From contig JABHWU010000025.1 in the NCBI GenBank assembly GCA_018657625.1, positions 1 to 64,000 of the forward strand: a stretch of 64,000 bases of DNA, given 5' to 3'. The translations under genes and the position numbers were made by a program. Below the pieces are notes generated by a model. The model was not told where the DNA came from. It saw only the letters and a list, made by a program, of their open reading frames with translations, and ran no database searches. This DNA comes from Deltaproteobacteria bacterium. GTDB taxonomy: Bacteria; SAR324; XYD2-FULL-50-16. Below, piece by piece: positions 1 through 20,215 of the stretch; position 1 is the first letter of the stretch; each line of letters starts with the position of its first letter.

Positions 1-3000
1 CTGGGTCATGGCACTGGCGGACATGGCCAGGATGGGCAGGTCTCTAAATTGCGGCTTTTTTTTGATGGTTTCGGTTGCTTCATAGCCATCCATCACCGGC
101 ATCTGGATATCCATCAGCACGATGTCATAAGGCTCTTTTTCAACCGCATCCACGGCTTGCTTGCCGTCTTCAGCGATTACAATCACAAATCCTGCCTGTT
201 CCAACATTTCCCGTGCTACCTGCTGGTTGATTTCATTATCTTCTACCAATAGAATACGTGCCCCTTGAATTGATTTTAAGGCTTCTTTATCAAACCCTTT
301 CTGGGATGAACGAGCGGTTATTTCGGCTTCATTTCCGTGCCCAAATTCAGCTGTAAAAATAAAAGAGCTACCTTTTCCCGGTTCGCTTTCCACCCAGATT
401 TTCCCATTCATCATTTCCACCAACCGTTTACTGATGGTTAACCCTAAACCAGTGCCACCAAATTTTCGGGTCGTAGAAGAATCGGCTTGAGAAAAGGATT
501 TGAATAGCTTACCGATTTGTTTCTTGGTTAATCCGATGCCGGTATCTTTAACCGCGAATTGAAGTATGAATTTCTCTGCTGTTTCTTCGACCAATTTTGT
601 TTCGATGGTCACTGCCCCTTTAGCAGTAAATTTTACAGCGTTGTTGGAAAGGTTGATCAGGATTTGTCCTAACCTGAGAGAATCCCCTTTTAAAAACCGA
701 GGAATTTCAGGTGGTGTCTGGAATTTCAGGGATAATCCTATTTTCTCAGCTTTGATTGAAATTAAGGTGGATACATTGTCTAAAACATCATCGAGATGGA
801 AATCGGCAGCTTCCATGTCCATCTTACCAGCTTCAATCTTAGAAAAATCCAGGATGTCATTGATCAGTCCTAACAGGGATGTTGCTGAACGATGGGTTTT
901 CTTCAAATAGTCTTGCTGCTTTTCTGTCAGATCTGTTTGCAAAGCTAAATGGGTCATCCCCATTATGGCATTCATGGGGGTTCGGATTTCGTGACTCATA
1001 TTAGCCAGGAATTCACTTTTTGATTTGGTAGCGGCTTCAGCTGCCTCCATTGCTTCCTGAGTTTTTGCGTGCAGTCTAGCTTTTTCAATCGCCATGCCCA
1101 AATTCGCGGTCAATGTACTAACGACACGTACATCTTCTGGTGTGTAACGGTTTTTTTCCGGATGTTGGATTGATAAAACACCGATTGGAGTGTCACCTGC
1201 CAGAATAGGAACGCCCAGAAACGATTCCTCACTTCCGCTTGTATTTGTTGCTCCATGTTCAATACCTTCCTCCACTGTATTGATAATCAAGGGAGTTAAT
1301 CTTTTTAGGACAATAGATGTTAACCCTTGTCCGTATTTAAGGGGTTCTCTTTCTGTTCGTTTACCTTCCAGTATATAATAGGGGAAATGAATTAAACCTT
1401 CTTCTTTATCATATAACGCTATAAAAAGCGTAAAAGGATCAAAAAACTTATAAAGCTCATCTCCAGCAAAATTTATTAATTTGTTAAGATCTAGTTCTCC
1501 AGTTAACCCCTGTCCTATTTTATTAATAATTTCCAGTTCTGCATTTCCTTTTTGGGTCTCTTCAAGCAGTATTCTCGTTTTTTCCTCTGCCAGTTTTCTC
1601 TCTGTAATATCCAAATGAACCCCTGTCATAAGTGTTGCTATACTATCATCATTTTGTCCTACAACCTGACCTTTTGATTGAATCCATTTCCAGGAACCAT
1701 TTTTTGCTTTAAATCTAAATTCTGCTTGATAAATATCATTTCGCCCGGAAAAATGATCTTCAAGAGATTTGTTAACAATTTCCTTATCATCAGGGTGAAG
1801 TAGTAAGTCAAATACATCTTGTTTAGGTGTAAAGTCATCGGGACTGTAACCCAATTGTCTGAACCATTGATCACCATAATACAGAGCTTCATTTGTAATT
1901 GGATTCATCTTCCATATACCAGTGTTTGATGCTTCTAAAGCGATGTTTAATGTCTGTTGTAAATTTAGTAACTCTGATTCTGCTTTTTTCCGTTCTGTGA
2001 TATCTAAATGAGCCCCTGTTAATTGTGTTGGGTGGCCATCAGCACCCCGTTCTACCGCTTGCCCTTTGGAAAAGATCCATTTCCATGACCCATCTTTTGC
2101 TCTAAACCTAAATTCAGCCTCATAAGTTTTAGTCAATCCTTTTTCATGATTTTCTATTGCCTTATAAGCTGAATCTTTATCATCAGGATGTATCAGCATT
2201 CCAAACACATCTTGTCCTTCTTCAAAATCGTCTCGAGTATAACCCACTTGTTTAAACCATTGCTCACTCTGGTAAATGTTTTTAGAACCACCAGGTGTCA
2301 AATCGTATGTCCATATGCCGGTATTTGATGCTTCTAATGCTATATTTAAGGTTTGTTCAATATTATGTAATTCTTTATACAGATTTGCTCGTTCTTGTAT
2401 GACTCTGCCCAACCGTCGGTTCCATACAATAAATACAGTTATGACCAACAGCAAGCTAACACAAATTGGGACAACCCAAATGAGAATCGCCTTCAAATCC
2501 AGTCCAAATTTCACCTCAATTGGAGACATCCAGGTATTTTTGAATAATTTCTTTTCCTGATCGCTGATATCAGAAATTGCTTTGTTTAAAATATCAATCA
2601 TTTCAGGCCAGTCTTTCCGAACACCGACAGCAAGATCATATTTATATTCCGTTGGTGCGGAAACCTTAATGTTTTCAAATCCGAATTGTGTTACTGCATT
2701 GGAAACGACTAATAAACTACCAATATACGCATCTATATTTCCTTTATTTAGCTGCTCTAACCCTTCCTTTGACGTTGAAAACCTCACTAGATCAAGTTCC
2801 GGGTAATCATTTGTCAAAGCATCGTCAATGTAGTAATCCTTAACCACGCCAACTCTTTTACCATCAAGGTCAGCTAGACTCTCAACAAAAGTTCGATCTT
2901 TGTGTATCGCGATTATGGTTGGAAGAGAAAAGTACGGATTGGTAAAATTCAAGTACACCTCTCTACTCTCGGTAGGATTGACTCCAGGTAAAATGTCGAT

Positions 3001-6000
3001 TTCTCTTGCCTTAACTTTTTCTATAACCTGAGACCAATTAAGATCCGGAACAGTACTCAACTCAAGTTGCAGTCTTTCTGCCAATGCATTTATATAGCTG
3101 GAACTAATCCCACCGTATTTTCCATTTTCATCGATAAATTCAAAAGGTGCCCAGGAAGGGTCGATACCAAGCCGTATATCTTGATGTTTCTTTAACCAGG
3201 ATTTTTCACCTTTGGTCAATTCGATTAATATTTTTCGACCTGAATTTACACTGAACCATTTTTCAGATAAGTAGGACATCTCCGCATGCGAAACAACATT
3301 TAATGCTTTTTCCAGAATGTTCTTCAAAATAGGTTTGGATTTTATTACTCCAATTTGAAAATAGGATTCTTTACCGATTTCAACAAAAGCTGCTGTTTTC
3401 AACCCTTTTATGCGATTCTTCTTGATGAGGTAAGCTGCAACAGCATGATTACCTACATAAGCATTTGCGTTACCTGTAACTACTGATTTTAAGGCATTGA
3501 TTGTATTATCAACAGTTATTAATTTAATATTGGTATAGTTTTCCTTCAGGTATGATTCTGCATTGTAGCCTTTTTCAACCGCTATAGTTTTCCCTTTTAT
3601 ATCCTCTAAGGATTGTATCTTACTTTCCAAAGTAGTAATAATCACAGATTCCTTTTTACTAACTGGGCTTGTATAGTCGAGGAATTGTTTTCTTTCATCT
3701 GTAACAGTTAAACCTGGTGAAAGATCCAGTTCTTTTTGCTTTAATTGATTTTCCAAAACGGGCCAGGTATTATAAACCGGTTCCAGTTTAAGTTTTGTTT
3801 TTTTTGCCAGTAACCGTAGAATATCAACATGAAAACCTTTATATACACCGTTTTCCTTAAACTCATAGGGTGGCCAGTCTGTTGTAGCTGCAACTTTAAT
3901 AACTGGATTAGTAGAGACCCAGTTTTTCTCTTCAGGGGTGAGAATTAACTCCGGTTCTATTGAAGTTGTGTCAATAGAAATATAAGCACTTAAAATATCA
4001 CGTTGTTCTTTAGATGTGATCGAATCTAAACCTTTTTGCATTATATTACGAAGAATCTTTCGGTCATGTGGCACTCCCATACTGATTTCCAATGGATTCT
4101 TATCAAAATAAGCTGCTACTTTGAGGTTCGAGATAACATGTTTGGTGATCAGGTACGAGGTTACAGCTTGTGTACCCATGTATGCATCAGCTTTACCTGA
4201 TATTACTGCTTTTAGCGCCTTAAGAGTGGACCCAACAACCAGAAGATTGATTTTTGGATGTTTAGAGCGCAGCATTTCTTCGGTATAATAACCTTGCTCC
4301 ACAGCTATTGTCCTTCCTGTCAGGTCACTCAGATTATGGATATCGGTATTATTTTTTTGTGTAATAAAAACATCATTGGAAGTAACAAAAGGTTTAGTAA
4401 AGTATAGAAACTTATCTCGTTTTGGTGTTTGAATAAGTCCCGGTGCAAGATCCAGTTCACCGGTTTTAACACGAGATAAAAGATTGTCCCAACTATCCTC
4501 CACTAATTCAAGTTCGAGTTCAACTCGGGATGCAGCTAATTTTAATATATCATAAGTGATGCCTTCACGCTTACCGGAAGCGTTATTATATTCAAAAGGT
4601 GGCCAGTTAGTTGCTGCAACTTTAATAACAGGGTGGTTCTCAATCCAGGTACGCTCTTTTGTTGTTAGATCAATTTCCTTAGAATCATCAATTGAGAGCC
4701 ACTGGTTGCGCAGATCAACCAGTTCTTGATGACTAATACGTTTCAATCCCTTGTTCAAAATAGTAGCTAATAGTGGTTTGGATTTATGAACTCCGACACG
4801 AAAGGTACCGCCCTCCCCTACATAACGTGCAGCAATTTTAAGGTTTTTAACCGGGGAGGATTTTTGTGTTTTATAATAACGAATCAATCCTGCAATGAGT
4901 GCATCTACTTTACCTTTACTTACTAGCTTCATGGATTCGGAAACACTATTTACCGGTATCAGTTCACCTTTATCACCAATAATGTTTTGCAAACTTTCGT
5001 TGATAGCTCCCCCTTTGATGACAGCAACTTTTTTGCCGCTCAAATCGGTCCATTCGAGTATATCGTTATAATCTTGCCTAACTACAGCTAATAAGGGGAC
5101 AAATGCGTACGGTTCAGTGAAGTTGATATTTTTCTCACGTTCGGGAGTTCTGGACATATTCATTCCAACGGCGATATCACCGGACATTACAGATTTTACA
5201 GCATCGCTCCATTTTGACTTGAATACAGGCACAAACTCCAAACCGGTATTATTGGACAAAAGAGAGAGAAAATCAGGGTTAAGTCCTGTATAAGACCCAT
5301 CTTTTTCCACAATATTTATCAGTGGTAAGCTTGTGACAGCAACAGTCACTGCCGGATTGTTTCTTATCCAGGATTCTTCTTCAGGTGTAAACTTTTTGGA
5401 TAGGAGTAGTTTTTCATAGTACCGATTAATAGGATCAGGTAACCAACGTTGTTCCAGTTCGGCCAGTTGCGTTATTGGAAGGTTTTGAAATCCTTTGTTT
5501 ATAAGTGGGAGTAAATCTTTTCGGTTTTTGCGCACTGTTGCAACAACATGGTTGGAAAAGGATATCTGCTCGCTTTTTATTAGTAGTCCGCGGATTCCAT
5601 AAGAAGCTAAATCGGCTTCGATTTTGACATTTTCGTTAAGGATAGCATTAATCTCACCTCGTAGTAGTGCTAAGATTAAGGATCTCCCATTGGGATAACT
5701 GACCGCTTGAATATTTTTATAATTATCTGTAAGAAACTGAAATTGATATGTACCTTCTATTGCCCCAATTATTTCCCCAGAAAACTTTCCAATAGAAGCT
5801 TTCGCTTCTTTATTATTAGAGAAATACAATGATGTTTTGATTTCATGGATGGGTTGGGAAAAAGCCATCCACTGTGCTCTCTGTTTATTAATGAATAGTC
5901 CAGAATGAATGTCTGCACTGCCTTCATGTAGCGCTTGAATTGATCCTGGTAAATCATTAACCAAAAATTCTATAGGTACACCGGTCTGCTTACTCCACAT

Positions 6001-6207
6001 TCGCCACATTTCCACAAATAACCCTGTGGGTTTCCCAATAGGAGAAATGACTGTGAATGGAGAGTATGTTCGGGCAATTGATATAACCAGGGGTTTTCCT
6101 GCACTTTGCCCTGCGAAGGCACCACTATGGGTACAGAGTAAAATAAGGCAGAAGTACCCTAAAGTATAAATGAATTTATGAATCCGTATACAATTATTTC
6201 GTTTCAT
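1..6207 (-). CDS. Giant hybrid histidine kinase with five tandem periplasmic SBP_bac_3 domains (3' end outside window)
   Basis: Reading the minus strand from the ATG at 6207 gives 2069 codons open to base 1, so the C-terminus lies beyond the window. A signal/anchor segment (about residues 8-30) is followed by five family 3 solute-binding domains starting near 35, 276, 519, 759 and 1002. Repeats 2-5 open with a W[IVL]xxxxxI-type motif, and repeats 3-5 have WPPFE or a close variant. Then come one membrane span (about 1240-1262), two nearly identical PAS_3 domains (about 1286-1530), a GAF domain (about 1549-1700), HisKA with H1739 in [11 protein letters not shown], a HATPase with DTGIGL and GGTGLGL, and a receiver with D2033 in LMDIQMP. 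By analogy with BvgS/EvgS kinases, the binding domains should sense small polar ligands in the periplasm and drive a His-Asp phosphorelay. An Hpt and the shared tail are expected off the window but not seen. The ATG at 6212 hits a stop after two codons, so 6207 is the start. Confidence 0.93.
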
Positions 6208-6363: not shown

Positions 6364-6717
6364 CTAGTTATTTATCATTGTATTTAATACATTCAAAGCT
6401 TCTTTAAACTTGTATTTTAATACATGTTTATTCAAACTTTTAAGTGAATCTGTAAAATCATCCGGCCATGAAAACTGATTAATCTCTTCTAGTTTTTCTT
6501 TACAAGGTTTTGATTTTCGTTTTTTAATTAACGGTTCTAATTCTTTTAATAATTTTTTCAATTGATCCAGTGTTCCAGCCGGTTTTTTGGCCTTGTTTAA
6601 TTCCTCTTTTTTCTGAGATTTCACAAGGATGCTTAATTCAGCCATTGGAATATCCAATTTTTCTTTGAGTTTTAGAATCGGTTCTTTAAAGCCCTTTATT
6701 TCTTTATTTTTAATCAT
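6364..6717 (-). CDS. Stand-alone copy of the post-Hpt kinase tail domain
   Basis: This 117-residue ORF matches the C-terminal ~100 residues of the neighbouring hybrid kinases: a KLKEKLDIPMAEL segment (last Hpt helix and linker), then LEPLIKKRKSKPCKE, then an FSWPDDF...YKFKEALNVL helical end. No Hpt, receiver or kinase part is present. Its ATG overlaps the stop of the upstream nucleotidyltransferase gene by 8 bases, so the two are probably translationally coupled. It may be a remnant of a hybrid kinase whose body was lost or replaced, or a functional single-domain protein; the absence of stops over 117 codons favours recent origin or retained function. The function of the tail is not known to me. 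Confidence 0.7.
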   Translation of the reverse strand: MIKNKEIKGFKEPILKLKEKLDIPMAELSILVKSQKKEELNKAKKPAGTLDQLKKLLKELEPLIKKRKSKPCKEKLEEINQFSWPDDFTDSLKSLNKHVLKYKFKEALNVLNTMINN

Positions 6718-7300
6718 TTAAGATTCCGGCATCATCAAATGCTTTTTGGAATAATTTCCAAAGATCAAGAATTTTTGCCCAGTGTCTCAAATAATCTTGG
6801 TCAAGTTGCTTCTGTTGTACTTTTATTATTCCGAGTATATCTTTCCATTGCTGGTCAGATATACAGTCTCCTTTTTTGAACCAATTTAATTTATTTAAGA
6901 TAATATCCTCAGCGCTTCCCAGGAAAAAAGTAATCTTATTTTGATCATCCAAAGTATCAATTTGCTTTCGAGAAAAAGCACAAAGGTCATAAGGTGTATT
7001 TTTTAAAATAAATACATCAACCTTCAACATAGTCTCAAGATGAATTAGATTAAAAGAAGATGAATGTTGAATGGCATCCACCACTGACTGTTCATTGATA
7101 TAGTATTTTTTTTTCAAAACTTTAATTAGACCGGGCACTTGTTTTGTTTTTAAATTAGATACTAAATCCACATCCAATGTGGCTCGCGCTATTCCATAGG
7201 CTGAACTGGCAACAGAGCCTCCAATGTAATATTGTACTCCTAAATTTTCAAAAGCCTTCACAATAGGATTAATAGCAGTGATGATATCAGATTCATTCAT
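6710..7300 (-). CDS. MNT/AbiEii-like nucleotidyltransferase
   Basis: The protein is 196 residues. Near residues 27-46 it has the Pol-beta nucleotidyltransferase signature: GGS, a short helix, then the DVD metal-binding pair (YYIGGSVASSAYG...TLDVDLV). A third acidic position is likely in KVDVFIL. Such proteins transfer a nucleotide to a protein or RNA and are common in MNT/HEPN-type and AbiEii-type toxin-antitoxin modules. It overlaps the preceding 85-residue gene by 4 bases and the following kinase-tail ORF by 8 bases, which makes a three-gene unit. No HEPN partner is visible. The fold is clear; the toxin-antitoxin role is inferred from gene pairing and size. Confidence 0.72.
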   Translation of the reverse strand: MNESDIITAINPIVKAFENLGVQYYIGGSVASSAYGIARATLDVDLVSNLKTKQVPGLIKVLKKKYYINEQSVVDAIQHSSSFNLIHLETMLKVDVFILKNTPYDLCAFSRKQIDTLDDQNKITFFLGSAEDIILNKLNWFKKGDCISDQQWKDILGIIKVQQKQLDQDYLRHWAKILDLWKLFQKAFDDAGILND

Positions 7301-7554
7301 TTCGTATTTTCTTTTAGGAATTCTTGAAGGTCTTTGGCCAGTTTCTGACCATAGTGGTTTTCAATAAAAATCAAATTTATTTCCTGATCATTCAGTTCAG
7401 GGTTCATCCGTTTAATTGCTCTACGAGCTAATTGAATCATGGTTTGGGAAAGAGATCGAACTAGCGCAATCCTTTTGGCAATGCTTGCTTCTCGAATCAA
7501 AGCTAACTGCGCTTCTTCTGCTTCAAGAGATGTATCCAGTGATTGACGTATCAT
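7297..7554 (-). CDS. Small helical partner of the nucleotidyltransferase
   Basis: This 85-residue, mostly helical protein contains SLEAEEAQLALIREAS, a middle segment RSLSQTMIQLARRAI, and an ending with NLIFIENHYGQKLAKDL. I recognise it as a family of short proteins often encoded directly upstream of nucleotidyltransferases of the type found here, usually annotated hypothetical. The 4-base overlap with the next gene indicates co-translation. By position it could be the antitoxin or a substrate-binding cofactor. It shows no DNA-binding motif I can name and no catalytic residues. Confidence 0.6.
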   Translation of the reverse strand: MIRQSLDTSLEAEEAQLALIREASIAKRIALVRSLSQTMIQLARRAIKRMNPELNDQEINLIFIENHYGQKLAKDLQEFLKENTK

Positions 7555-7603
7555 TTTCTTACCCTAAATAATTGTTCAAATAGGTCCTTGATTTTCATGA
7601 AAC

Positions 7604-10600
7604 TCAGGATGATATTTGTTTTAATAAATCCTCTAATATCTTTATTGCATCCTTAAACATGTATTTTGAAACTTGGTTATTCAATTTGGTAATTAAATCG
7701 CTGTATTTATCAGCCCATGAAAAATGATTTATTTTCTCCATCATTTCCTTGCATGGTTTGGGTTTTCGTTTTTTCAATAGCGGTTCTAGTTCAGTTAAAA
7801 GTGCTCTTAGTTGATCCGGTGTTCCATTTGGTTTTTCTCCCTTATTTGATTCATCTACTTGCTGGGCATCTGCAATGAGCTTTATACTTGGCATAGGGAC
7901 ATCTAATTTTTCTTTTAAGGTTTGGATCATATTTTTTATCTCTTCCAGCTGGTAATTTTTAACAGCTAGTTCCACTACTTCGGCCGCTTTCTGCACATCC
8001 CCTGCGCCGATATTCCCGGCCACGCCTTTAACGGTATGTGCTAATCGTTGAGCCAGCTCATTGTCTTTTTCTTTCAAGGCCTTTTGAATCTGTTCTGTGA
8101 TGTCCTGGTTATCCCGGTGGAATTTGACCAATAGGTCCCGGTAAAGTTTTTGATTGCCACCCACCCTTCTCAAACCGGTTTTCATATCAATACCTGGCAG
8201 TTTATCTGGCAGTTCAATCTTTTCCTCGTTGCCTAGTGCCTTTTGCCTAATGCCTGGATTAACTTCTCTATCACCTGGTTTAATCCATTTAAGCAGGGCC
8301 GCAAACAGCTGCTGAAGTTCTATGGGCTTGGCGACATGATCATTCATTCCAGCCGCCATAGACTCGTCTCGGTCCTGGGTCATGGCGTTGGCAGACATTG
8401 CCAGGATAGGAAGATCGTTGAACTTTGGATTCTTTCTGATGGCTTTGGTGGCTTCATAACCATCCATAATCGGCATTTGAATATCCATTAGTACCAAATC
8501 ATACGTTTTTTTCTGAACCGCAACGATGCCTTGCCTTCCGTCTTCAGCAATATCAATCACAAAACCAGCTTTTTCTAATATTTCCTGCGCTACCTGCTGG
8601 TTGATTTCATTGTCTTCTACTAATAGAATTCGTGCGCCTTGGATTGATTTTAATCTTTCCTGATCAAAGCCTTTCTGTGATGATCGCACCTTTAATTTCG
8701 CTTCATTCCCATGCCCAAATTCAGCGGTAAAAATAAAAGAGCTACCTTGATCCGGTTCGCTCTCTACCCAGATTTTCCCGTTCATCAATTCCACCAGGCG
8801 TTTACTGATGGTTAACCCTAAACCCGTTCCACCAAATTTTCGGGTCGTGGATGAATCAGCTTGAGAAAAAGATTTGAACAACTTTCCGATTTGCTCTTTA
8901 GTCAATCCGATACCAGTATCTTTTACAGCAAATTGGAGAGTGTACTTCTCAGGTGATTCCTCGATCAAGCTCGTTTCGATGGTCACTGAGCCTTTGGCCG
9001 TAAATTTCACAGCATTATTAGCTAAATTGATCAAAATTTGTCCTAATCTGAGAGAATCTCCAATTAGAAATCTGGGAATTGAATCAGATGTTTGGAATAT
9101 TAAATCAAGACCTTGTTCCTCTGCTTTGATTGTGATTAATGTGGAGACATTATTTAGTACATCATCGAGGTGAAAATCGACGGATTCCATATCCATCTTG
9201 CCGGCTTCGATTTTGGAGAAATCCAGAATATCATTAATTAATCCCAACAAAGATGTGGCTGAATTATAGGTCTTCTTTAAATAATCTTCTTGTTTGGGAG
9301 TCAGATCGGTTTCCAGCGCCAGGTGAGTCATGCCCATTATCGCATTCATCGGAGTTCGGATTTCGTGACTCATATTGGCCAGAAAATCACTTTTAGCTTT
9401 GGTGGCTGCTTCTGCATCTTGTTTGGCAATTTGAAGTTCCTTTTCAATTTCTTTTTGATGGGTAATATCTGTCGCTAAACCACACAAACCATAAACAGTT
9501 CCTTGTTGATCAAACAAAGGAAACTTTTCAGTCAAATGAATTCTAAAGGAATCATCCTGATGAGGAATCGTCATTTCAAAGGTTTCCGGGCGTTTATTTC
9601 TCATTATGCGTGCGTCAATTGCCATGATTTCTTCAGCAACGTCTTTTGAAAACAGATCCAAATCTGTTTTGCCAATCACTGCTTCCCTTTTTATCCCAAA
9701 AGATTCTTCAAAAAACGAATTCACTAACACATGCTGACCCTCAGTATCTTTTATAAAAACCAGACTATGAACACCGTCGATAATAGTCTGTAATCTATCT
9801 CCTGCTTCCTTAATTGTTTTTTCTGCTTTTTTTCGCTCTGTGATATCCAGATGAACACCAACAAATCTGTCTGCTTCTCCGATCCCGTTTCTTTGAATAA
9901 CTTTCCCTTTTGCTAAAATCCACTTCCAACTGCCATCTTTGGCTTTTAAACGAAATTCGGACTCATAAATGTCTGAATTACCAATTGAAAGATCTTGTAA
10001 TTTCTCACTAACTCCTTTTTTGTCATCAGGGTGAAGCAAATGATCAAATGGATCTACATCACTATCAAATTCTTCCCGTTGATACCCTAATTGCTTATAC
10101 CATTGCTCATTATTATATACCTCACCACTAATTAAACTCCCATCCCATAATCCTGTATTTGAAACTTCAAGTGCCAAATCCAATCTCTTGCGATTCGTTT
10201 CAAGCTCCTGCTCCATTTGTTTCCGTTTTGAGATATCCGAAGTAATGCCAATTATTCGCTCGGTTTCACCAGAAGCAGTTCTTTCAACAATCTTTCCAAT
10301 GGCGAGGATCCACTTATATGAACCATCTGCCGTCTTCACTCTCATTTCCTCTTGATAGGCTCCACTTTTACCTTCATCGTAATTAGCCAGGCCTTTTTCG
10401 ACTGCTTCTCTATCATCAGGGTGCAAAATTTCTGCAAATGGGTCGTTGTTGCCAGTAAACCTTCCTGGTTCATACCCCAATTGCCTGTGCCATTGATCGT
10501 TCAGGTAAAGTTCTTTCTTGATTGGCTTCAAATCCCACAAGCCAGTATTGGAAGCCTCCAGCGCCAAATCCAGTCTTTGCTGACTTTCGTTCAGCTCGGC

Positions 10601-13600
10601 TTCCATTTTTTTACGCACGGAAATATTTTCTTTAACAGCCACATAGTGTGTAATAATATTGTCATTACCGATGATAGGTGATATGGCAGCTTGTTCCCAG
10701 TAAATTTCTCCATTCTTTTTTTTGTTACAGAATTCACCCTGCCAGGCTTCTCCAGAGGCTAGCATATCCCACATATTCTTATAAAAGCTTTTTGGCTGTA
10801 TACCCGAGTTGAGAATCCTTGGATTTTTCCCAAGGGCTTCTTTTTGAGAATAACCCGTCACTTCCGTAAATTTGGGATTAACATATTCAATTTCACCATT
10901 CGGTTTTGTAATCACTACTGAAACCGGACTCTGTTCCACTGCCTGGGATAATTTCCTGAGTTCACTTTCATTATGTTTTCTTTGTGTAATATCTTCCTGG
11001 ATAGATACAAAATGAGTAATTTCATTTTCGGTATTGGTAATCGGAGAGATCACTACCGAATCCCAATGACAATTACCATTCTTGTCTTTATTAAAAATTT
11101 CACCTCTCCAATCATTTCCTGCTAAAATGGTTGACCACATTTCTTTAAAAAAAGAATCAGGATGAAAACCGGAATTCATGATATTCGGTTTTCTCCCAGA
11201 AACTTCCTCTTTGGAAAATTTTGTAATCACTTCAAATTTTGGATTTACATATTCAATCGAACCATTTTTATCTGTGATAACAATCATGACCGGACTTTCT
11301 TCGATAGCAAAAAATAACTTTCTAAGTTCGGTTTCGGTTTTTTTACGTTCTTTGATTTCAACGGATAACTCAGATGTTCGTTCCCTAACTTTATCTTCAA
11401 GCTCATTACGAGACTCAATAAGTATTTCATTGGCTTTCCTTCCAAACCAGAGGCTAATGGCAGTTAGCAATATCATTAATATAAATGTGATCCCTAAAAC
11501 CGTTATAAATATTGACCGTGTGGCATAATAAGGAGACAGCGCTTCTTTCTCATCAATTTCTGTCGCAAAACCAAAACCCAGGTTTTTGTCCCAAATCCAA
11601 ACACCAAGCACCCTGATACCCCGATAGTCACGATATCCATGTGTGTTTATGCCGCTATTCCCTGAAGTCGCTTTTTTTGCCATCAAAGTAAGTGATTGTC
11701 GATCTTTTGTCAGATTAGCCTTGAAGCCTTCTGTTAAATCCCCACCTGGGTTATTAAGCACAATATTTAACATTGAGTTCGCTTTAAGGTCCAGCAATCC
11801 TATTTCTCTTAGCTGATCTTCAAATCTACTATTGGAAATCAGCTTGCCAGTTTTATCAAAAGCATAGGTTTCTCCGGAGACGCCTATTTTCCCGACTTGA
11901 ACCAGGCGATTGAATTCTTTAGTCGGGTCCATTCTTAGGGTTAATACCGCCATGACATTACCTTGCTTATCTTTAATCGGTGCCGCAAAAAACATCGTGG
12001 GTGGATTGATACTTGATTCAACCTCTTCTGATCCTAGTTTTACATCGGATTCCAAAGGAGGAATAAAAGTCGTATATCCTTCAAAGGCTTTCTGAATAAA
12101 TACCGGTCGTTGATCAACGATCAGATTGGTTTTTCCAATATTGGTGTCTCGCATCGAACCAATGTTGATAAAGTCTTTAGATATAATAAAGAAGCCTAAA
12201 TCTCCTTGTGTGTCCCTTAGCTTATCGAAATGTTGCCGAATATGAGATAGTGTCTGGCTTTTGAGTAGGTCAGGTTTTATGCGGGTTACATCCAGATGTT
12301 TGGCTGTCAACTCCTGAAGTTTTGGATCTTGAGCAAGTCTTTGAACGACCGCTTTCTGGCTTTCGACCCAAACCAATAAGGACTCATGAGCAGAAGTAAC
12401 CACTCCCCTTAATGACTCCCCAGCATTTTTCCGACTCTGTTCTTCAATGCTTTTCAAAGCTGTTAAAGCAAAGATGCTGATCAGGATTAGAAATATTCCC
12501 ATTAATATCGGTGCTACCCATATCACCTTATTGGATTGAATCAGGGAGACAAAAGCATTACCAAAATAGTGTTGAATGAGAAAGTATAGTATTCCAATAA
12601 CACCGGAAACTATCACTAAAAATATTAATCCCTGCCAAAGGATTTTTTGGACCGAAAATGTTTCAACAGGGACCAGCTGGTCCGTAGGTGGCGCAACAAC
12701 GGAAGATTTAATCCAGCGATTTGAGATTTCCTGTTTCTCATCCTGGCTAACAGAGTGAATCGCCTTGTTAAGTATTGATACCAATAATGGATTCCCTTTT
12801 TTAACACCAATTTTAATTTTAAATCGTTCATTGTCATCAATACCAGAGCGACCGACGATTTGTAATCCTGATAAAAAGTTTTCCTGAATCGTGTGATTAA
12901 CAACAACACCGCTTCCAATAAAGGCATCTGCCTTATTTCGCAAAACTAATTGCAGTCCCTCTAAAAATCCATCAGCTGGAACAACGTCTATCTCAGGATA
13001 ATCTTCTTTGACTTTATTAACATAATAGTAACCATCAACCATGGTTAGTTTTTTAGCTTTTAAATCGCCGACACCACTAAGTTCTGTTTCACCAGCCCTG
13101 GTGACAATAACGGTAGGATTAACCATGTAGTGATCGGTAAAATCCGTATACTTGCGTCGCTCCGGAGTATCACCCATAGCAGGCAACAGATCGATTTCTT
13201 TATTGCGTAGTTTATCCAGCAGCTGCGTCCAACTAAAACCGTTGACAAATGTTAACTCCAATCCGGTTTTTTCAGCCAATAATTTCAGATAATCGATAGA
13301 GTACCCTTTGGCTTCCCCATCAATATTGAAATCAAATGGTGCCCAGTCATTTTCATTACCAACAATCAATGTTTGCTTTTTTCCAATCCAGGCTTTTTCC
13401 TCGTTTGATAAAACTAAACCTGGTTCCAGGTTTTTTTGACGCCCCAACCATTTATCATTCAAAGCTTGCTTTTCTTCGGGAGTAATAGACGCCATGGCCT
13501 TGACCAGCATTGATTGTAATTCCGGCCAATCATTTCGCACAGCGATATTCAGGTTTTCAGTTTCCGGGTTACCGGAATTAAATTCCCCGCTGATTTGCAG

Positions 13601-14584
13601 ATCGCTTAGAACATTTTCCCGTATAAGATGTCGGGCCACAGCTAATTCTGCCAGAGCCGCATCGGACCTTCCAAACTCTACGGCTTTTAATGAATCCAGG
13701 GTGTTTTCGACTGGTACCCGGATTATTTTAGGGTATTTTTTTTCCAGGATTTCTTCATAAAAAAAGCCGGCTGGAAAAGAGACCCGTTTGCCAAAAAGTG
13801 ATTCCAGGTCAGTCAAAGGACTGTTTGTTTTGGTGATGATAGCGTTAGGGTTTTTAAAATAGCTGCCGGTAAATAACAGGCGTTTTTGACGATCCTCAGT
13901 TTTAACAATATTGAGCATGACATCCAGTTCTTTTTCAAATGCCATTTGAAGCAGTGCACCCCATTCTCCGGAAATGTATTCCACCTTAATACCGATCCGG
14001 TTTGCCAACAGATCCATATACTCAATAGAAAGACCGGTTGGTACTCCGTATTTATTGAAGTTAAATGGCGGCCAATCGAGTTCATTATGAACCTTAATAA
14101 GGGGGTGATTTTTAATCCAGTTTTTTTCTTGCACTGTAAGAATTATCTTTTCTTCCTGAACGTTAGTTGTCTCAACATAAACCTCAATGAACCCAACCGG
14201 TTCACCGTTATAAAGAGATTCTGTTTTGGAATATTCTAATTTATTAAATCTATCGGGGATTGATTGACCAAAAATCAGTTTTTCCTCATCCCTAAAAAAC
14301 TGCAGCATTACTTCGTCGTCAATGCTCTCAACAATACGAAGCGCTTTGATTGATGGGTTGTCTTGTAAGAATGGCGTAAGAATGCTTTGTAACTGTTCAT
14401 TGTCCAGGTTGTAAATGGGACCGGCACTCAAAGCTGCAATTTTTTTTGACAAAAGATCTGTAGAATTATTATTGGTTTCAGTTGTCATTAAGGCAAATGT
14501 ACCGGATCCGAACAAAAATCCTGAGATAAATATCATCAAAAAGCTGATGAACAAGATCAATTTACGAGACATGATTTTTCTCAT
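7604..14584 (-). CDS. Hybrid histidine kinase: 2xSBP_bac_3, Cache, 5xPAS, HisKA-HATPase, REC, Hpt, tail
   Basis: The 2326-residue membrane sensor runs in this order: an N-terminal span and a ~110-residue extracytoplasmic region, SBP_bac_3 domains at about 155-380 and 395-625, membrane spans near 658-680 and 685-712, a Cache-type periplasmic domain (about 715-1010) and another span (about 1015-1045). Then come two PAS domains with ITDKNGSIEYVNPKF-type starts, two PAS_3 domains, a fifth PAS, HisKA with H1740, HATPase (GGTGLGL), a receiver with D2034, Hpt with H2183 in AHTVKGVAGNIG, and the [15 protein letters not shown] tail. The second in-frame ATG at 14572 is better placed behind AAGGATGAG than the first at 14584, so the true start may be residue 5. 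It lies 8 bases after an orphan binding-protein gene, which probably feeds or tunes it. Two separate sensory inputs, SBP and Cache, share one kinase core. Confidence 0.95.
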   Translation of the reverse strand: MRKIMSRKLILFISFLMIFISGFLFGSGTFALMTTETNNNSTDLLSKKIAALSAGPIYNLDNEQLQSILTPFLQDNPSIKALRIVESIDDEVMLQFFRDEEKLIFGQSIPDRFNKLEYSKTESLYNGEPVGFIEVYVETTNVQEEKIILTVQEKNWIKNHPLIKVHNELDWPPFNFNKYGVPTGLSIEYMDLLANRIGIKVEYISGEWGALLQMAFEKELDVMLNIVKTEDRQKRLLFTGSYFKNPNAIITKTNSPLTDLESLFGKRVSFPAGFFYEEILEKKYPKIIRVPVENTLDSLKAVEFGRSDAALAELAVARHLIRENVLSDLQISGEFNSGNPETENLNIAVRNDWPELQSMLVKAMASITPEEKQALNDKWLGRQKNLEPGLVLSNEEKAWIGKKQTLIVGNENDWAPFDFNIDGEAKGYSIDYLKLLAEKTGLELTFVNGFSWTQLLDKLRNKEIDLLPAMGDTPERRKYTDFTDHYMVNPTVIVTRAGETELSGVGDLKAKKLTMVDGYYYVNKVKEDYPEIDVVPADGFLEGLQLVLRNKADAFIGSGVVVNHTIQENFLSGLQIVGRSGIDDNERFKIKIGVKKGNPLLVSILNKAIHSVSQDEKQEISNRWIKSSVVAPPTDQLVPVETFSVQKILWQGLIFLVIVSGVIGILYFLIQHYFGNAFVSLIQSNKVIWVAPILMGIFLILISIFALTALKSIEEQSRKNAGESLRGVVTSAHESLLVWVESQKAVVQRLAQDPKLQELTAKHLDVTRIKPDLLKSQTLSHIRQHFDKLRDTQGDLGFFIISKDFINIGSMRDTNIGKTNLIVDQRPVFIQKAFEGYTTFIPPLESDVKLGSEEVESSINPPTMFFAAPIKDKQGNVMAVLTLRMDPTKEFNRLVQVGKIGVSGETYAFDKTGKLISNSRFEDQLREIGLLDLKANSMLNIVLNNPGGDLTEGFKANLTKDRQSLTLMAKKATSGNSGINTHGYRDYRGIRVLGVWIWDKNLGFGFATEIDEKEALSPYYATRSIFITVLGITFILMILLTAISLWFGRKANEILIESRNELEDKVRERTSELSVEIKERKKTETELRKLFFAIEESPVMIVITDKNGSIEYVNPKFEVITKFSKEEVSGRKPNIMNSGFHPDSFFKEMWSTILAGNDWRGEIFNKDKNGNCHWDSVVISPITNTENEITHFVSIQEDITQRKHNESELRKLSQAVEQSPVSVVITKPNGEIEYVNPKFTEVTGYSQKEALGKNPRILNSGIQPKSFYKNMWDMLASGEAWQGEFCNKKKNGEIYWEQAAISPIIGNDNIITHYVAVKENISVRKKMEAELNESQQRLDLALEASNTGLWDLKPIKKELYLNDQWHRQLGYEPGRFTGNNDPFAEILHPDDREAVEKGLANYDEGKSGAYQEEMRVKTADGSYKWILAIGKIVERTASGETERIIGITSDISKRKQMEQELETNRKRLDLALEVSNTGLWDGSLISGEVYNNEQWYKQLGYQREEFDSDVDPFDHLLHPDDKKGVSEKLQDLSIGNSDIYESEFRLKAKDGSWKWILAKGKVIQRNGIGEADRFVGVHLDITERKKAEKTIKEAGDRLQTIIDGVHSLVFIKDTEGQHVLVNSFFEESFGIKREAVIGKTDLDLFSKDVAEEIMAIDARIMRNKRPETFEMTIPHQDDSFRIHLTEKFPLFDQQGTVYGLCGLATDITHQKEIEKELQIAKQDAEAATKAKSDFLANMSHEIRTPMNAIMGMTHLALETDLTPKQEDYLKKTYNSATSLLGLINDILDFSKIEAGKMDMESVDFHLDDVLNNVSTLITIKAEEQGLDLIFQTSDSIPRFLIGDSLRLGQILINLANNAVKFTAKGSVTIETSLIEESPEKYTLQFAVKDTGIGLTKEQIGKLFKSFSQADSSTTRKFGGTGLGLTISKRLVELMNGKIWVESEPDQGSSFIFTAEFGHGNEAKLKVRSSQKGFDQERLKSIQGARILLVEDNEINQQVAQEILEKAGFVIDIAEDGRQGIVAVQKKTYDLVLMDIQMPIMDGYEATKAIRKNPKFNDLPILAMSANAMTQDRDESMAAGMNDHVAKPIELQQLFAALLKWIKPGDREVNPGIRQKALGNEEKIELPDKLPGIDMKTGLRRVGGNQKLYRDLLVKFHRDNQDITEQIQKALKEKDNELAQRLAHTVKGVAGNIGAGDVQKAAEVVELAVKNYQLEEIKNMIQTLKEKLDVPMPSIKLIADAQQVDESNKGEKPNGTPDQLRALLTELEPLLKKRKPKPCKEMMEKINHFSWADKYSDLITKLNNQVSKYMFKDAIKILEDLLKQISS

Positions 14585-15404: not shown

Positions 15405-15660
15405 TCAGGTTGACAATAGACCAGACAACTTGACTAAAGATTTCTCAGCATCCTTAAATTTATATTTTGATACCTTTTTTTTAATTTCCTTGAGTAAAAT
15501 TGTTAAATCATCAGGCCAATCAAATTGTTCATTTGTTACTACTACTACTACTACTACTACATCTTCTTCTTTACATGGTTTTGGTTTTCGTTTTTTTAGT
15601 ATGGGTTCCAGCCCGATCAACAACGTTTTCAATAATAATTTTTAACTCTGCCATAGGATT
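15405..15660 (-). pseudogene. Decayed copy of the post-Hpt kinase tail
   Basis: Homology to the kinase tails starts at PMAELKII (minus strand from about 15660, just inside the ATG at 15654). It then jumps, with a change of frame and loss of the ~30-residue linker, to [22 protein letters not shown], and continues through FDWPDDL...[13 protein letters not shown] to the stop at 15405. Base-level comparison with the tail at 17129-17500 shows the same flanks with the linker missing. A trinucleotide repeat encoding eight valines sits after CKEED. The only full-length frame would start with a TTG and have no ribosome-binding site, so I call it a remnant. It lies directly after the stop of the AlbA_2 gene. 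Confidence 0.75.
15538..15560. repeat. (ACT)n trinucleotide microsatellite
   Basis: Seven complete ACT units plus two bases occur without interruption. On the minus strand they encode a run of valines inside the decayed kinase-tail copy. Related tails have no equivalent run, so the repeat expanded here, probably by slippage in a relaxed sequence. Confidence 0.95.
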
Positions 15661-15672
15661 TTTTTTTTATTA

Positions 15673-17013
15673 TTAGTCAGAATATTTGCGATAAAAAACA
15701 CCTGCACCCTTGCCAAATCGCTTCAAACTGCCATTTTCCACTAATGAACGCAGCTTTCTAGAAATCGTACTTCTAGAAACATTGAAGTGGCTTTCCAAAT
15801 CACGTGGCTTGATCACTCCTTTTTCCTCTATAAGAGAAAAAATTATATCAGTAGAAATTGAAATATCGGTAACCGCTTTTTGAAAAAAAAATGTCACTTT
15901 TACAAAATCACCATCTTCGTTGTATTCAGGCAGCTTTAAACCTTCTTTTTTACAGCTATCATAAATTAAACGTATCCCTGTTCCCAACTTTTCTATTAGC
16001 CTCATTTTCCGTGCTATTCTGGAAATTATGATATTTCTTAAAAATGTTGTACCATCTCCAAGATTTTTTATGGATATCATTCCGGGAAATGATCCGGGAC
16101 TAAAGATTTCCAATCGATCTTCAAACAAACCAAACTTAATCGCTCCAGGAATAGAATATTTCCTATGAATAAGCGCATTGATAAGCGCCTCTCTTAAGGC
16201 TTCCGGAGGAATTAGGTGTTTTCCTTTTAACTGAATACCTTTTAAATGATATTCTCGCTCCAACCATTCGGAAATAAGTAGATATGCTGACTCCGCCAAA
16301 CTTGGGATTGATCCTCTTAGCTCGATGGTTTGAATAATAGATCGTCCTTTTTTACCTGAAAATCGGGTGCAGATGATAATTGCTTCAGGAATATAGTCAT
16401 CAGGCGACTCATTAAACATTAATAAGCCACCATTAGTTACTAGTAATTCATGTGAGAATGAAAGGTTTCCAGTTATTACCTTATCTGCTTGTAATCGCCT
16501 TTCAGAAATATTATTTCCATAAAATCTTTCCAGTAATTGATTTGAAAGAACTGAAATCTGTTGGCCTGACGATTCCTCGTCAAATGAAACTCGGCGTTGC
16601 TCACGACTTAAGTCTTCTACTGATTCAATATTAGCTTTTCGGGTGCTTGCTCCCAATCTAATATACACACCGCTGGGAGTCCCAAGACGCTTCAGAAAAT
16701 ATGGTTTTTTTGTGCCTGGATAGATTTTGATAATTACAACTTGCTGATCTCCTAAGTTTTTTTCATATATGTGAGGAATTAAACTAGGGCTAACAGAGTC
16801 ATAGAGACTATTTGGAAAGTCTTCATAGAGTTTTTCCCGGTCGTTTTCTGATATTCCAGTAATATCATGTGTTTTGTCTTGTACACCAACGATAATCTCT
16901 CCACCTGCGCCGTTGGCGAAGGCTATACAAGTTTTTATGAGCTTTTTAAAGTCTGGTACTTTTGCCTTAAATTCAAGTGTTTTTGATTCTCTCTCAGTGT
17001 ATGTTTGAGTCAT
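15673..17013 (-). CDS. Schlafen/AlbA_2-type ATP-binding transcriptional regulator
   Basis: The 446-residue protein begins with an AlbA_2 (Schlafen-like) domain, seen as ESKTLEFK followed by FANGAGGEIIVGVQD (about residues 8-125). A GHKL-type ATPase-like segment follows with the family hallmark EALREALINALIHRKY and IFSPGSFPG (about 260-345). It ends in a winged helix around RDLESHFNVSRSTISRKLRSL (about 395-440). This architecture is usually annotated as a putative transcriptional regulator or RecG-like helicase relative and is common in accessory regions. A block of five AATTG[T/C]GTC units covers the ~100 bases upstream, fitting autoregulation. A decayed kinase-tail copy follows the stop. It is flanked on both sides by kinase-tail sequence and looks like an acquired gene. 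Confidence 0.85.
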   Translation of the reverse strand: MTQTYTERESKTLEFKAKVPDFKKLIKTCIAFANGAGGEIIVGVQDKTHDITGISENDREKLYEDFPNSLYDSVSPSLIPHIYEKNLGDQQVVIIKIYPGTKKPYFLKRLGTPSGVYIRLGASTRKANIESVEDLSREQRRVSFDEESSGQQISVLSNQLLERFYGNNISERRLQADKVITGNLSFSHELLVTNGGLLMFNESPDDYIPEAIIICTRFSGKKGRSIIQTIELRGSIPSLAESAYLLISEWLEREYHLKGIQLKGKHLIPPEALREALINALIHRKYSIPGAIKFGLFEDRLEIFSPGSFPGMISIKNLGDGTTFLRNIIISRIARKMRLIEKLGTGIRLIYDSCKKEGLKLPEYNEDGDFVKVTFFFQKAVTDISISTDIIFSLIEEKGVIKPRDLESHFNVSRSTISRKLRSLVENGSLKRFGKGAGVFYRKYSD

Positions 17014-17031: not shown

Positions 17032-17110
17032 ATAATTGTGTCAATTGGATCTATTCGTTAAAATTGCGTCAATTGTGTCATTAAAAAAATAATTGTGTCA
17101 ATTGTGTCAT
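17032..17110. promoter_or_regulatory. Iterated AATTGYGTC operator/promoter array upstream of the AlbA_2 gene
   Basis: AATTGTGTC-type units begin at 17034, 17062, 17071, 17091 and 17100. The pairs at 17062/17071 and 17091/17100 are direct tandem repeats with a 9-base period, and the clusters are 28-29 bases apart. Read on the minus strand the units contain TTGACA/TTGACG, so they overlap possible -35 boxes. The position, directly before the start of a winged-helix regulator, suggests its own binding sites; this is inference. Confidence 0.7.
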
Positions 17111-17128: not shown

Positions 17129-20100
17129 TCAAGATGAAAGCAAATTTTTCAATTCCTCCAATGTTTTACTCGCCTCCTTAAATTTGTATTTTGAAACAAA
17201 CTTGCTTAAATCATCTAGTAAAGTAACATATTCTTCCGGCCATTCGAATTCATTAACCTTTTCCAAAACCTCCTTGCAGGGTTTCGGTTTTCGTTTTTTT
17301 AATATGGGTTCCAGCTCAGCTAAAAATGTTTTCAGTTGATCGATAGTCCCTTCTGGTTTTTCTGCTTTAACTGAATCTTCATTTTTCAGTGCATTTACCA
17401 AGATATTTAATTCTGTTATGGGGACAGTCAGATTTTCCTTTAAGGTCTGGATCATTTCGTTGATGGTATCCAGCTGATTGTTTTTAATAGCCAGTTCCAC
17501 AACTTCAGCTGCTTTCTGGATTTCCTTTGCCCCGATATTCCCGGCCACACCCTTAACAGTATGTGCTAATCTTTGCGCCAATTCATAGTCTTTTTCTTTC
17601 AGGGCCTTTTGAATCTGTTCAGTAATGTCCTGGTTATCCCGGTGAAATTTGATCAATAGATCCCGGTAAAGTTTTTGATTGCCGCCAACTCTGCTTAGTC
17701 CTAAATTTAGATCGATACCCGATATTATTTCGGGCAATAAGTTAGCTGCTTCTTTTACTTCGGTTGGAATTTTTAATTGGCTGATATCCCGATCACCGGG
17801 TTTTATCCACTTTAATAGCGCTGAAAACAGTTGCTGGGGTTCGATGGGTTTAGGCACGTGATCATTCATTCCTGCTGCTACTGCATTTTCCTGATCCTGG
17901 GTCATGGCACTGGCGGACATGGCCAGGATGGGCAGATCTTTAAATCCAGGAAGCTTTCTTATGGTTTTGGTAGCCGTATAACCGTCCATAATCGGCATCT
18001 GGATATCCATTAAGACAATGTCATATTCATTTTGTTGCACGGCTGTGACTCCCTTTTGCCCATCGACAGCGATTTCAACTACAAATCCTGCCTGCTCCAA
18101 CATTTCCCGTGCTACTTGCTGGTTGATTTCATTGTCTTCAACCAATAGAATTCGTGCGCCCTTAATTGTTTTTAAGGTATCCTGATCAAGTCTTTTTTGG
18201 GATGAATTTAATTTAATATCAGCTTCATTGCCGAGACCAAAGTTTGCAGTAAAATTAAATGAACTCCCTTCACCTGGTTCGCTTTCTGCCCAAATTTTTC
18301 CACCCATTAATTCTACTAACCGTTTACTGATGGTTAATCCTAAACCGGTTCCACCAAATTTTCGGGTGGTTGAGCTGTCTGCTTGAGAAAAAGATTTAAA
18401 CAGTTTGCCGATTTGTTTTTGTGTTAAACCGATGCCAGTGTCTTTCACTGTAAATTGCAAGGTACATTTCTCTGATGTTTTTTCAATCAAATCAGTCTCA
18501 ACAGTGATTTCCCCTTTTTCAGTGAATTTTACGGAATTGTTGGCTAGATTTATTAGAACCTGTCCTAACCTAAGGGAGTCTCCCACCAGCATTCCTGGAA
18601 TTGATTCATTTGTATTAAATATTAACTTAAGTCCTTTTTCCTGTATCCTCACGGAAATTAGGGTAGAAACACTGTTCAAAACATCATCCAACTGAAACTC
18701 GATAGATTCCATATCCATCTTGCCTGCTTCGATTTTAGAAAAATCCAGAATGTCATTAATAAGCCCTAATAAAGACTTAGCAGCTCTATGTGTTTTATTT
18801 AGATAATCCTCCTGTTTAGGTGTCAAGTCAGTTTTCAAGGCAAGGTGTGTCAACCCCATGATGGCATTCATAGGGGTACGGATTTCGTGACTCATATTGG
18901 CCAGAAAATCTCCTTTGGCTTTGGTGGCTGCTTCGGCTTCTTCTTTTGCTTTAAAAATCTCCTGTTCCATCTTTTTTCGTTCGGTAATATCCATGTGAAC
19001 ACCAATTACACGCTCTACTTCTCCAGTATCACTGCGGTTGATTACTTTACCCACAGACAATATCCACCGCCACGAATCATCAGAGGCTTTTAACCGGAAT
19101 TCCATTTCATATTCATCGTAACCTTCGTATAGCAGTGCCTGGCTGACCTGATCTTTATCGTCTTCATGCAGAATCATAAAAAAAGGGTCGTCATTGTCTT
19201 CAAAAACTCCTGGTTCGTATCCTAATTGCCTATACCATTGATCGCTTAAATAGTGCTCACCTGCAATTGGATTAAAATCCCATAGACCCGTATTAGACGC
19301 TTCGAAAGCCAAATCCATTCGTTTTTTGGCAGAATCCAGTTCATTCGTTAATTGCTTAATATTTGTTATATCTCTAGCTACCGATACCACTGATGACTGT
19401 CCCGATTCCTGTAAGATCATTGGTGAGTATCGTGCATCATACCATCTATCCCCAATATCGGTCGGTAAACAATACTCTATTTGAATGGTTTTATTCTGTT
19501 CCAGGGAATCTTCAATCGCTGCTTTAATCGCAGTGGCTATATCCGGAGGTAATACATCTTTTACATTATTTCCAACCAGGGTTTCAAAGGCTTCGAAACC
19601 ATCCAGCGTTCCAAGTTCATCACTTTCCATATTTCTAAAGTAGATTTTTTGGTATACGCCATCCCGATCATAAATAATTGTAACATCTGGTAAGGCTGCT
19701 ATTAGGGCCTGCATACTTGCCTGACTCAAATTGAGGTCTTCCATGATGTTCAGCATTGAGCGTTTGGCTCTTGCTAACTCTTCTATTTGCTTTTCCATCG
19801 CCTGAGAAGCATCTTCGCGCTGTTCAAAGGCATTTTGAAGTTGCTTGGTCATACTGTTAAAGGCATCAGAAAATTTCCCCATAAAACCGACATTATGAGA
19901 AAAATCCCCTTTGGAAATTTGTTGAGTTGTCCAGGTAAGGTGCTTTAGGCTGGCTTGTAAACCTTTCAAAGCCTGAAGAATGGAAGTATTACTTTTCGGT
20001 GTTTCTACTTCAACATCCCCTTTGCCAAGGTTAAAAGCAAAATCGCTACTGGCTTTATAGTCTTCCAGGAAGCGATTCATATAATCTACCATTTGTCGAT

Positions 20101-20215
20101 ATTCATTATCCGGATAATCTTGAGGTAAAGTTAATGGATCAGGCGTTTTTCCTTTACTTAAATTATAAAAAACTTCTGTGATTCTTTCGAGATCTAGCTC
20201 TTTGACCGAAATCAT
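17129..20215 (-). CDS. Soluble HAMP/PAS hybrid histidine kinase with REC, Hpt and tail
   Basis: The 1028-residue protein has no membrane span. An N-terminal helical region with a HAMP-like segment (TQQISKGDFSHNVGFMGKF, about 85-140) leads into a PAS domain (about 170-285), a PAS_3 domain (about 290-415), HisKA with H443, HATPase (GGTGLGL), a receiver with D737, Hpt with H885 in AHTVKGVAGNIG, and the C-terminal tail with [15 protein letters not shown]. The V4R-domain gene lies 228 bases upstream on the same strand and is the natural candidate for its input. That gap holds only a short hairpin (ACTACT/AGTAGT, 20409-20425) and no clear terminator. The tail is the best preserved partner of the decayed copy at 15405-15660. 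Confidence 0.95.
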   Translation of the reverse strand: MISVKELDLERITEVFYNLSKGKTPDPLTLPQDYPDNEYRQMVDYMNRFLEDYKASSDFAFNLGKGDVEVETPKSNTSILQALKGLQASLKHLTWTTQQISKGDFSHNVGFMGKFSDAFNSMTKQLQNAFEQREDASQAMEKQIEELARAKRSMLNIMEDLNLSQASMQALIAALPDVTIIYDRDGVYQKIYFRNMESDELGTLDGFEAFETLVGNNVKDVLPPDIATAIKAAIEDSLEQNKTIQIEYCLPTDIGDRWYDARYSPMILQESGQSSVVSVARDITNIKQLTNELDSAKKRMDLAFEASNTGLWDFNPIAGEHYLSDQWYRQLGYEPGVFEDNDDPFFMILHEDDKDQVSQALLYEGYDEYEMEFRLKASDDSWRWILSVGKVINRSDTGEVERVIGVHMDITERKKMEQEIFKAKEEAEAATKAKGDFLANMSHEIRTPMNAIMGLTHLALKTDLTPKQEDYLNKTHRAAKSLLGLINDILDFSKIEAGKMDMESIEFQLDDVLNSVSTLISVRIQEKGLKLIFNTNESIPGMLVGDSLRLGQVLINLANNSVKFTEKGEITVETDLIEKTSEKCTLQFTVKDTGIGLTQKQIGKLFKSFSQADSSTTRKFGGTGLGLTISKRLVELMGGKIWAESEPGEGSSFNFTANFGLGNEADIKLNSSQKRLDQDTLKTIKGARILLVEDNEINQQVAREMLEQAGFVVEIAVDGQKGVTAVQQNEYDIVLMDIQMPIMDGYTATKTIRKLPGFKDLPILAMSASAMTQDQENAVAAGMNDHVPKPIEPQQLFSALLKWIKPGDRDISQLKIPTEVKEAANLLPEIISGIDLNLGLSRVGGNQKLYRDLLIKFHRDNQDITEQIQKALKEKDYELAQRLAHTVKGVAGNIGAKEIQKAAEVVELAIKNNQLDTINEMIQTLKENLTVPITELNILVNALKNEDSVKAEKPEGTIDQLKTFLAELEPILKKRKPKPCKEVLEKVNEFEWPEEYVTLLDDLSKFVSKYKFKEASKTLEELKNLLSS

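Follow-up and report, generated by a model that had tools for sequence, protein, structure and literature searches.

Introduction

Orphan toxin tips of Rhs and CDI systems display a particular geometry, in which a conserved core and its tip are followed by small genes and a displaced tip. The MenAT1 toxin-antitoxin module of Mycobacterium tuberculosis (Rv0078A-Rv0078B) pairs the nucleotidyltransferase MenT1 with a small helical partner encoded upstream. In MenT1, T39, D41, K137 and D152 have been identified as catalytic, with T39 as the phospho-site, and toxicity was lost when D41, K137 or D152 was changed to alanine (PMC10435456).

Here we describe a locus in which a candidate module of the MenAT1 type lies between two homologous histidine kinase tails, one of them cut off from any kinase. 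The window, by which we mean the whole stretch of DNA analysed, spans the first 64 kb of contig C26, which is 102.8 kb long and belongs to a metagenome-assembled genome of 142 contigs and 79.8% completeness. Its source is a SAR324-cluster bacterium, as indicated by its closest relatives: they form a class of 52 genomes that includes G015, a named SAR324-cluster MAG, but no member of the same genus. Comparisons were made within this class.

Results

A kinase array with homologous C-terminal tails

Four large hybrid histidine kinases, A to D, are encoded on the minus strand of the window. Kinase C (7604-14584), delimited by its open reading frame and Pfam domains, comprises in order two SBP_bac_3 domains, a Cache-like region, four PAS domains, HisKA, HATPase_c, receiver and Hpt domains, and a tail (7604-7990) with its stop at 7604. 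Tails of about 110 residues likewise follow the Hpt domain in kinase B (17129-20215), identified by its reading frame and tail homology, and in kinase A (22981-27717), an array member included for comparison and identified by its reading frame and a genome search. Kinase D (1-6207) is an open frame of 2069 aa that is cut by the contig end before its tail, contig C26 starting at window base 1.

Five clear tail copies are present in the genome, all within the array: three kinase C-termini and two orphans, which we call T1 and T2. The tails of B and C are 54% identical in amino acids and 67% in nucleotides, and the tail as a fold-search query gave no significant match. An initial profile search for tails across the class failed to recover kinases known to have them, and its results were left out of the counts. 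Elsewhere in the window, a gene for a periplasmic sugar-binding-type protein (31452-32380) runs for 245 aa in one frame and continues in another to 31452; this frame change is a frameshift or an assembly error.

An orphan tail joined to a nucleotidyltransferase gene

The initial annotation placed a nucleotidyltransferase (NTase) cassette between two kinase-tail copies, and its order and coordinates hold: on the minus strand, the tail of kinase C is followed by a gene for an 85-aa protein (7297-7554), the NTase gene (6710-7300), the orphan tail T2 (6364-6717) and kinase D. The 8-base overlap that it reported between NTase and T2 is also present, at 6710-6717. A 49-nt gap (7555-7603) separates the kinase C stop from the 85-aa reading frame, which overlaps the NTase gene by 4 nt, and a 156-nt gap lies between T2 and kinase D.

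Sequence and alignment show that the NTase stop, the T2 start and the start of kinase homology coincide within the 8-nt overlap (ATGATTAA, minus strand). T2 opens with the codons ATG ATT AAA AAT, the last three of which align with the (I/V)KN codons that close the Hpt domain in B and C. The NTase stop codon thus marks the precise start of kinase homology, and is itself made of kinase-derived bases read in another frame.

T2 itself is an intact 117-aa reading frame, recognised by homology, alignment and structural modelling. In a search of its own genome it matched the tails of kinases A, B and C with E values of 1e-24 to 2e-32, so the homology is not due to chance; it lacks HisKA, HATPase and receiver domains, though homologous to the C-termini of the array kinases. 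Its amino acid identity is 48% to tail C, 51% to tail B and 39% to tail A, and its DNA is 65% identical to that of tail C, with a longest exact run of 12 nt. In a tail tree, T1, T2, A, B and C form a star without resolution inside the array. Because it is equidistant from the paralogous tails and the tree is a star, T2 is a paralogue and not a copy of the neighbouring tail C.

Has T2 been free of a kinase for long? It keeps 31 of the 42 positions that are invariant in the other tails, exactly as many as the tail of kinase A, and it has no frameshift; pN is 0.29-0.37 against a pS of 0.56-0.78. Residues ~50-117 are predicted to form a helical bundle (pLDDT ~90, model m896b339c186e). Its GC content is 27%, versus 32-35% in the tails of B and C. 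The simplest reading of these sequences is that T2 was long constrained as part of a kinase and was orphaned recently, having been the tail of a separate working kinase until fairly recently, since a fragment cut off from its kinase at the time of these divergences would by now be decayed, like T1. T2 may still be made through translational coupling to the NTase.

Between kinases C and D we identified no N-terminal remnant of a lost kinase, here called X. All that the 49 nt before the partner gene (7555-7603) encode is a frame of 15 codons, MKIKDLFEQLFRVRK; short as it is, it could derive from the beginning of such a kinase. No recombinase gene and no att-like repeats were seen at the cassette boundaries, and a survey of the locus for boundary repeats, att-like palindromes and structured RNA gave nothing convincing.

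A candidate toxin-antitoxin pair

The AlphaFold model, Foldseek and a profile match mark the 196-aa NTase as a MenT1-like candidate toxin. When the model (pLDDT 87) was used in Foldseek, ranks 1-5 were all MenT1 or MenAT1 structures (8an5, 8an4, 8rr5; E 2e-6 to 3e-5), with a TM of ~0.55 and an rmsd of ~9, and a profile of seven NTase homologues matched MenT1 (8an4) by sequence with an E value of 0.016. Residues T41, D43, K137 and D154 correspond to T39, D41, K137 and D152 of MenT1; T41, D43 and D45 were aligned by the profile, and K137 and D154 were assigned by motif order, not by 3D superposition.

The 85-aa partner is a candidate antitoxin resembling MenA1/Rv0078B, as suggested by conserved pairing and by a match to PF18993 (Rv0078B) with an E value of 0.079. 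Three homologues match the same part of the profile at 1.1e-4 to 4e-3, and all four proteins score below the gathering score of 27.1 bits. Against PF08843 (AbiEii/DUF1814) the NTase had no match at an E value of 0.1, and one relative reached 0.046. PADLOC and NCBIfam contain no family for the gene pair, and the viral contigs contain no relative of the NTase. The pair looks like a candidate toxin-antitoxin module of the MenAT1 type and, by analogy, probably works like MenAT1; we infer its predicted toxicity and neutralisation from fold, motif positions and gene order only. Because its scores fall below the curated cut-offs and toxin-antitoxin activity is only predicted, we do not file it under the AbiEii/DUF1814 or Rv0078B family.

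The pair in other genomes

A copy of the pair is found in a SAR324 genome, G015, where the partner is 73% and the NTase 75% identical and the neighbours are a transposase-like fragment and a BrnT/BrnA-like pair. Homology to the window stops at the coding ends of both genes, and there is no tail. Five further loci, from Chitinivibrionales, Planctomycetota, Eisenbacteria, Archangium and an unclassified bacterium, have the partner upstream of the NTase, and in Herpetosiphon, Nostoc, Calothrix and Pseudanabaena, plasmids encode partner and NTase as a single fused protein. A kinase tail is absent beside the pair in G015 and at all other loci examined. Since the pair recurs elsewhere without it, the tail is not part of the pair, and the mobile unit, if any, is the pair alone.

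The copies differ at the predicted active site. In the G015 NTase (L048:425-1015) a G replaces the first Asp of the D-x-D motif (LGVDLV), and the second Asp is missing in other relatives (DIG in L062, DIY in L064); judging from these substitutions, some copies may be inactive. Elsewhere in G015 (C182:9527-9649, L052), 41 residues of this NTase survive as a relic interrupted by two stops, from which it follows that the pair is both gained and lost. In an unclassified bacterium (L063:4540-7991), a leuC-like gene comes shortly after the partner-NTase pair and is separated from a leuD-like gene by a second pair, a 117-aa MNT-like NTase and a 136-aa HEPN-like protein (all named by eye).

A second, decayed orphan tail

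The window holds a second case, missed by the initial annotation, in which the tail of kinase B is followed by an AlbA_2 regulator gene and the orphan tail T1, all on the minus strand. The regulator (15673-17013) combines SLFN_AlbA_2, RecG-C-terminal-like and HTH features (Pfam E 1.5e-22 and 4e-21). T1 (15405-15660), identified by reading frame, homology and alignment, adjoins this gene directly downstream and consists of 15632-15405 and a frameshifted remnant reading NPMAELKIII from about 15660. It has decayed: besides the frameshift, its linker is gone and it carries a run of eight Val codons. These codons form a GTN microsatellite inside an otherwise conserved tail motif (15405-15632).

Just upstream of the regulator gene start (17013), positions 17034-17103 contain three full-length AATTGACACAATT-like repeats, two exact and one with one mismatch, and an overlapping partial one. 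Their sequence and position suggest a probable autoregulatory operator. The genome also has a cluster of four AlbA_2-type regulator genes or fragments on a different contig (G000:C61:1-11267).

Kinase relics in related genomes

An empty site with one hybrid tail, which the initial annotation had proposed to look for in close relatives, did not turn up among the 52 genomes of the class, none of which is of the same genus. This set contained no orthologous C-D junction, and at this exact locus it revealed neither kinase X in intact form nor an empty site.

A genome of the same family, G007, contains two kinase relics, both without a cassette nearby. On contig C155 a 105-aa tail follows, in a different frame, directly on the sensor N-terminus of a kinase (L085:4006-4873), and on contig C93 a truncated solute-binding protein (SBP) gene is joined to an orphan Hpt-tail (L054:4065-5191). 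With two such cassette-free relics in G007, loss of a kinase body that leaves the tail behind is an ordinary process in the lineage. A further candidate for an orphan Hpt-tail, G023:C29, is cut by a contig end; it was rejected and left out of the count. Genome G006 has a related unit consisting of a PAS protein, a V4R protein and a kinase like B, followed by a convergent gene, with neither an AlbA gene nor an orphan tail.

Discussion

How did a kinase tail come to lie directly behind a nucleotidyltransferase gene? The best reading, and one that we consider likely, is that the body of a separate kinase was lost or replaced and that a toxin-antitoxin-like pair occupies the gap. The array would formerly have had a fifth kinase gene, X, between C and D, of which only the C-terminal tail, T2, would be left, comprising the last 110 codons from the end of the Hpt domain. 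The MenAT1-like pair, an 85-aa antitoxin candidate and an NTase toxin candidate, would fill this gap, its stop codon set by kinase sequence. It would have been inserted through illegitimate recombination, as two genes without a tail, and its insertion and the deletion of the X body may have been one event or two. If the pair acts as MenAT1 does, translation would be blocked by the NTase through nucleotide addition to tRNA acceptor ends, and the 85-aa protein would keep the enzyme inactive. In this reading, T1 represents the same process at a more advanced stage.

Replacement of a kinase body was one of two origins proposed in the initial annotation. It gains indirect support from the start of kinase homology at the NTase stop, the constraint on T2 and the G007 relics; no intact kinase was seen at this exact place among the 52 genomes. 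The annotation had also reasoned that an intact kinase here in relatives, whose deletion explained the tail, would leave no part for cassette movement, and the G007 tails left by body deletions come close to that situation, though at paralogous loci only. Among the points against the best reading, no N-terminal remnant of X was identified, and both orphan tails follow immediately on a non-kinase gene; simple deletion alone does not account for this coincidence.

A single process would explain both arrangements if T2 were the original tail of kinase C, displaced when the 3' end of an incoming kinase, bringing a different tail and the pair, recombined in the conserved kinase core and was joined illegitimately at the Hpt/tail boundary, with T1 displaced likewise at kinase B. 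Exact runs of 26-39 nt shared between the kinase cores would suffice for homologous recombination, while the tails have diverged, and B and C resemble each other more in the Hpt stretch (98% in amino acids, third-position identity 0.75) than elsewhere. However, third-position identity does not change abruptly where the tail begins, with values of 0.50-0.62 in the tail and 0.4-0.6 in much of the core, so the tails look faster evolving in protein, not replaced. No donor locus with tail and pair was found either, the G015 pair having no kinase tail, and we regard displacement as possible but doubtful. One could go further and see kinase tails as exchangeable tips, with regulator or toxin-antitoxin genes repeatedly arriving with a new tail and pushing the old one downstream, and with T2, coupled in translation to a tRNA-modifying toxin, still acting as a free phosphorelay accessory domain; this seems to us a long shot. 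The initial annotation's other proposal, a circle carrying the cassette and a tail copy that integrated by a single crossover in the tail of kinase C, has the tail-cassette-tail geometry itself in its favour but is not supported by the comparisons. The pair is tail-free at every other locus examined, in G015 as in other phyla, and no recombinase and no boundary or att-like repeats were seen. The two flanking tails, at 65% DNA identity and with at most 12 nt in an exact run, are no more alike than any other two tails (67% for B and C), so that the crossover would have to be as old as the kinase duplications, and yet T2 is undecayed; we judge such an integration extremely unlikely.

T2 might also be no relic but part of an adaptive operon, a selected stand-alone tail domain that is translated by coupling to the toxin gene and links kinase signalling to the module. 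Its intact reading frame with a conserved core, the overlap of its start with the NTase stop and the helical-bundle model, with a pLDDT of ~90 for the C-terminal 68 residues, are what such a role would predict, but recent orphaning also predicts conservation. Moreover, T1 has decayed, no homologous pair elsewhere keeps a tail, the orphan tails of G007 have no such linkage, and the GC content of T2 has drifted down from the level of the B and C tails, all of which makes selection of a free tail improbable. That the arrangement arose by collapse or misjoining of paralogous kinases during assembly is very unlikely as well. The fragmented, incomplete metagenome assembly and the truncation of kinase D at the contig end would allow it, but T2, the pair and the kinases on either side can be told apart by sequence, the junction falls within a unique stretch, and tails whose longest exact run is 12 nt are unlikely places for misjoining.

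With loss or replacement of the body of kinase X as the preferred reading, the locus is apparently an ordinary case of gene decay and insertion, with no sign of the pair moving as a circle, and a tail-cassette-tail geometry that is suggestive of a mobile circle can be explained without one. It would also show toxin-antitoxin pairs coming to rest in the gaps left by decaying members of a tandem kinase array. Beyond this locus, the MenAT1-like toxin-antitoxin candidates gain a two-gene family that is widespread but unnamed, and whose pairing is supported by natural fusions on plasmids.

Among described systems, MenAT1 offers the nearest solved fold and shares the small partner encoded upstream, an NTase of 196 aa, and the T-x-D-x-D motif, K137 and a later D at matching positions. 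Sequence identity is only ~16%, however, the pair here scores below the Pfam cut-offs for AbiEii and Rv0078B, its partner has 85 rather than 68 aa, its plasmid relatives are fused, and its activity is only predicted. The type IV system AbiE (DUF1814, AbiEii) has an NTase of the same superfamily beside a small partner gene, but the partner here does not match the AbiEi-type winged-helix protein, and PF08843 is matched weakly by some relatives. Orphan Rhs/CDI tips present the same geometry as this kinase array; unlike them, a kinase tail is not a toxin, there is no step in synonymous similarity at the core/tip boundary, and no donor was seen. The kinase relics of G007 (contigs C93 and C155) have no toxin-antitoxin pair or regulator gene in the gap, but like T2 they are an orphan Hpt-tail or tail that has outlasted its kinase body, in the same bacterial family.
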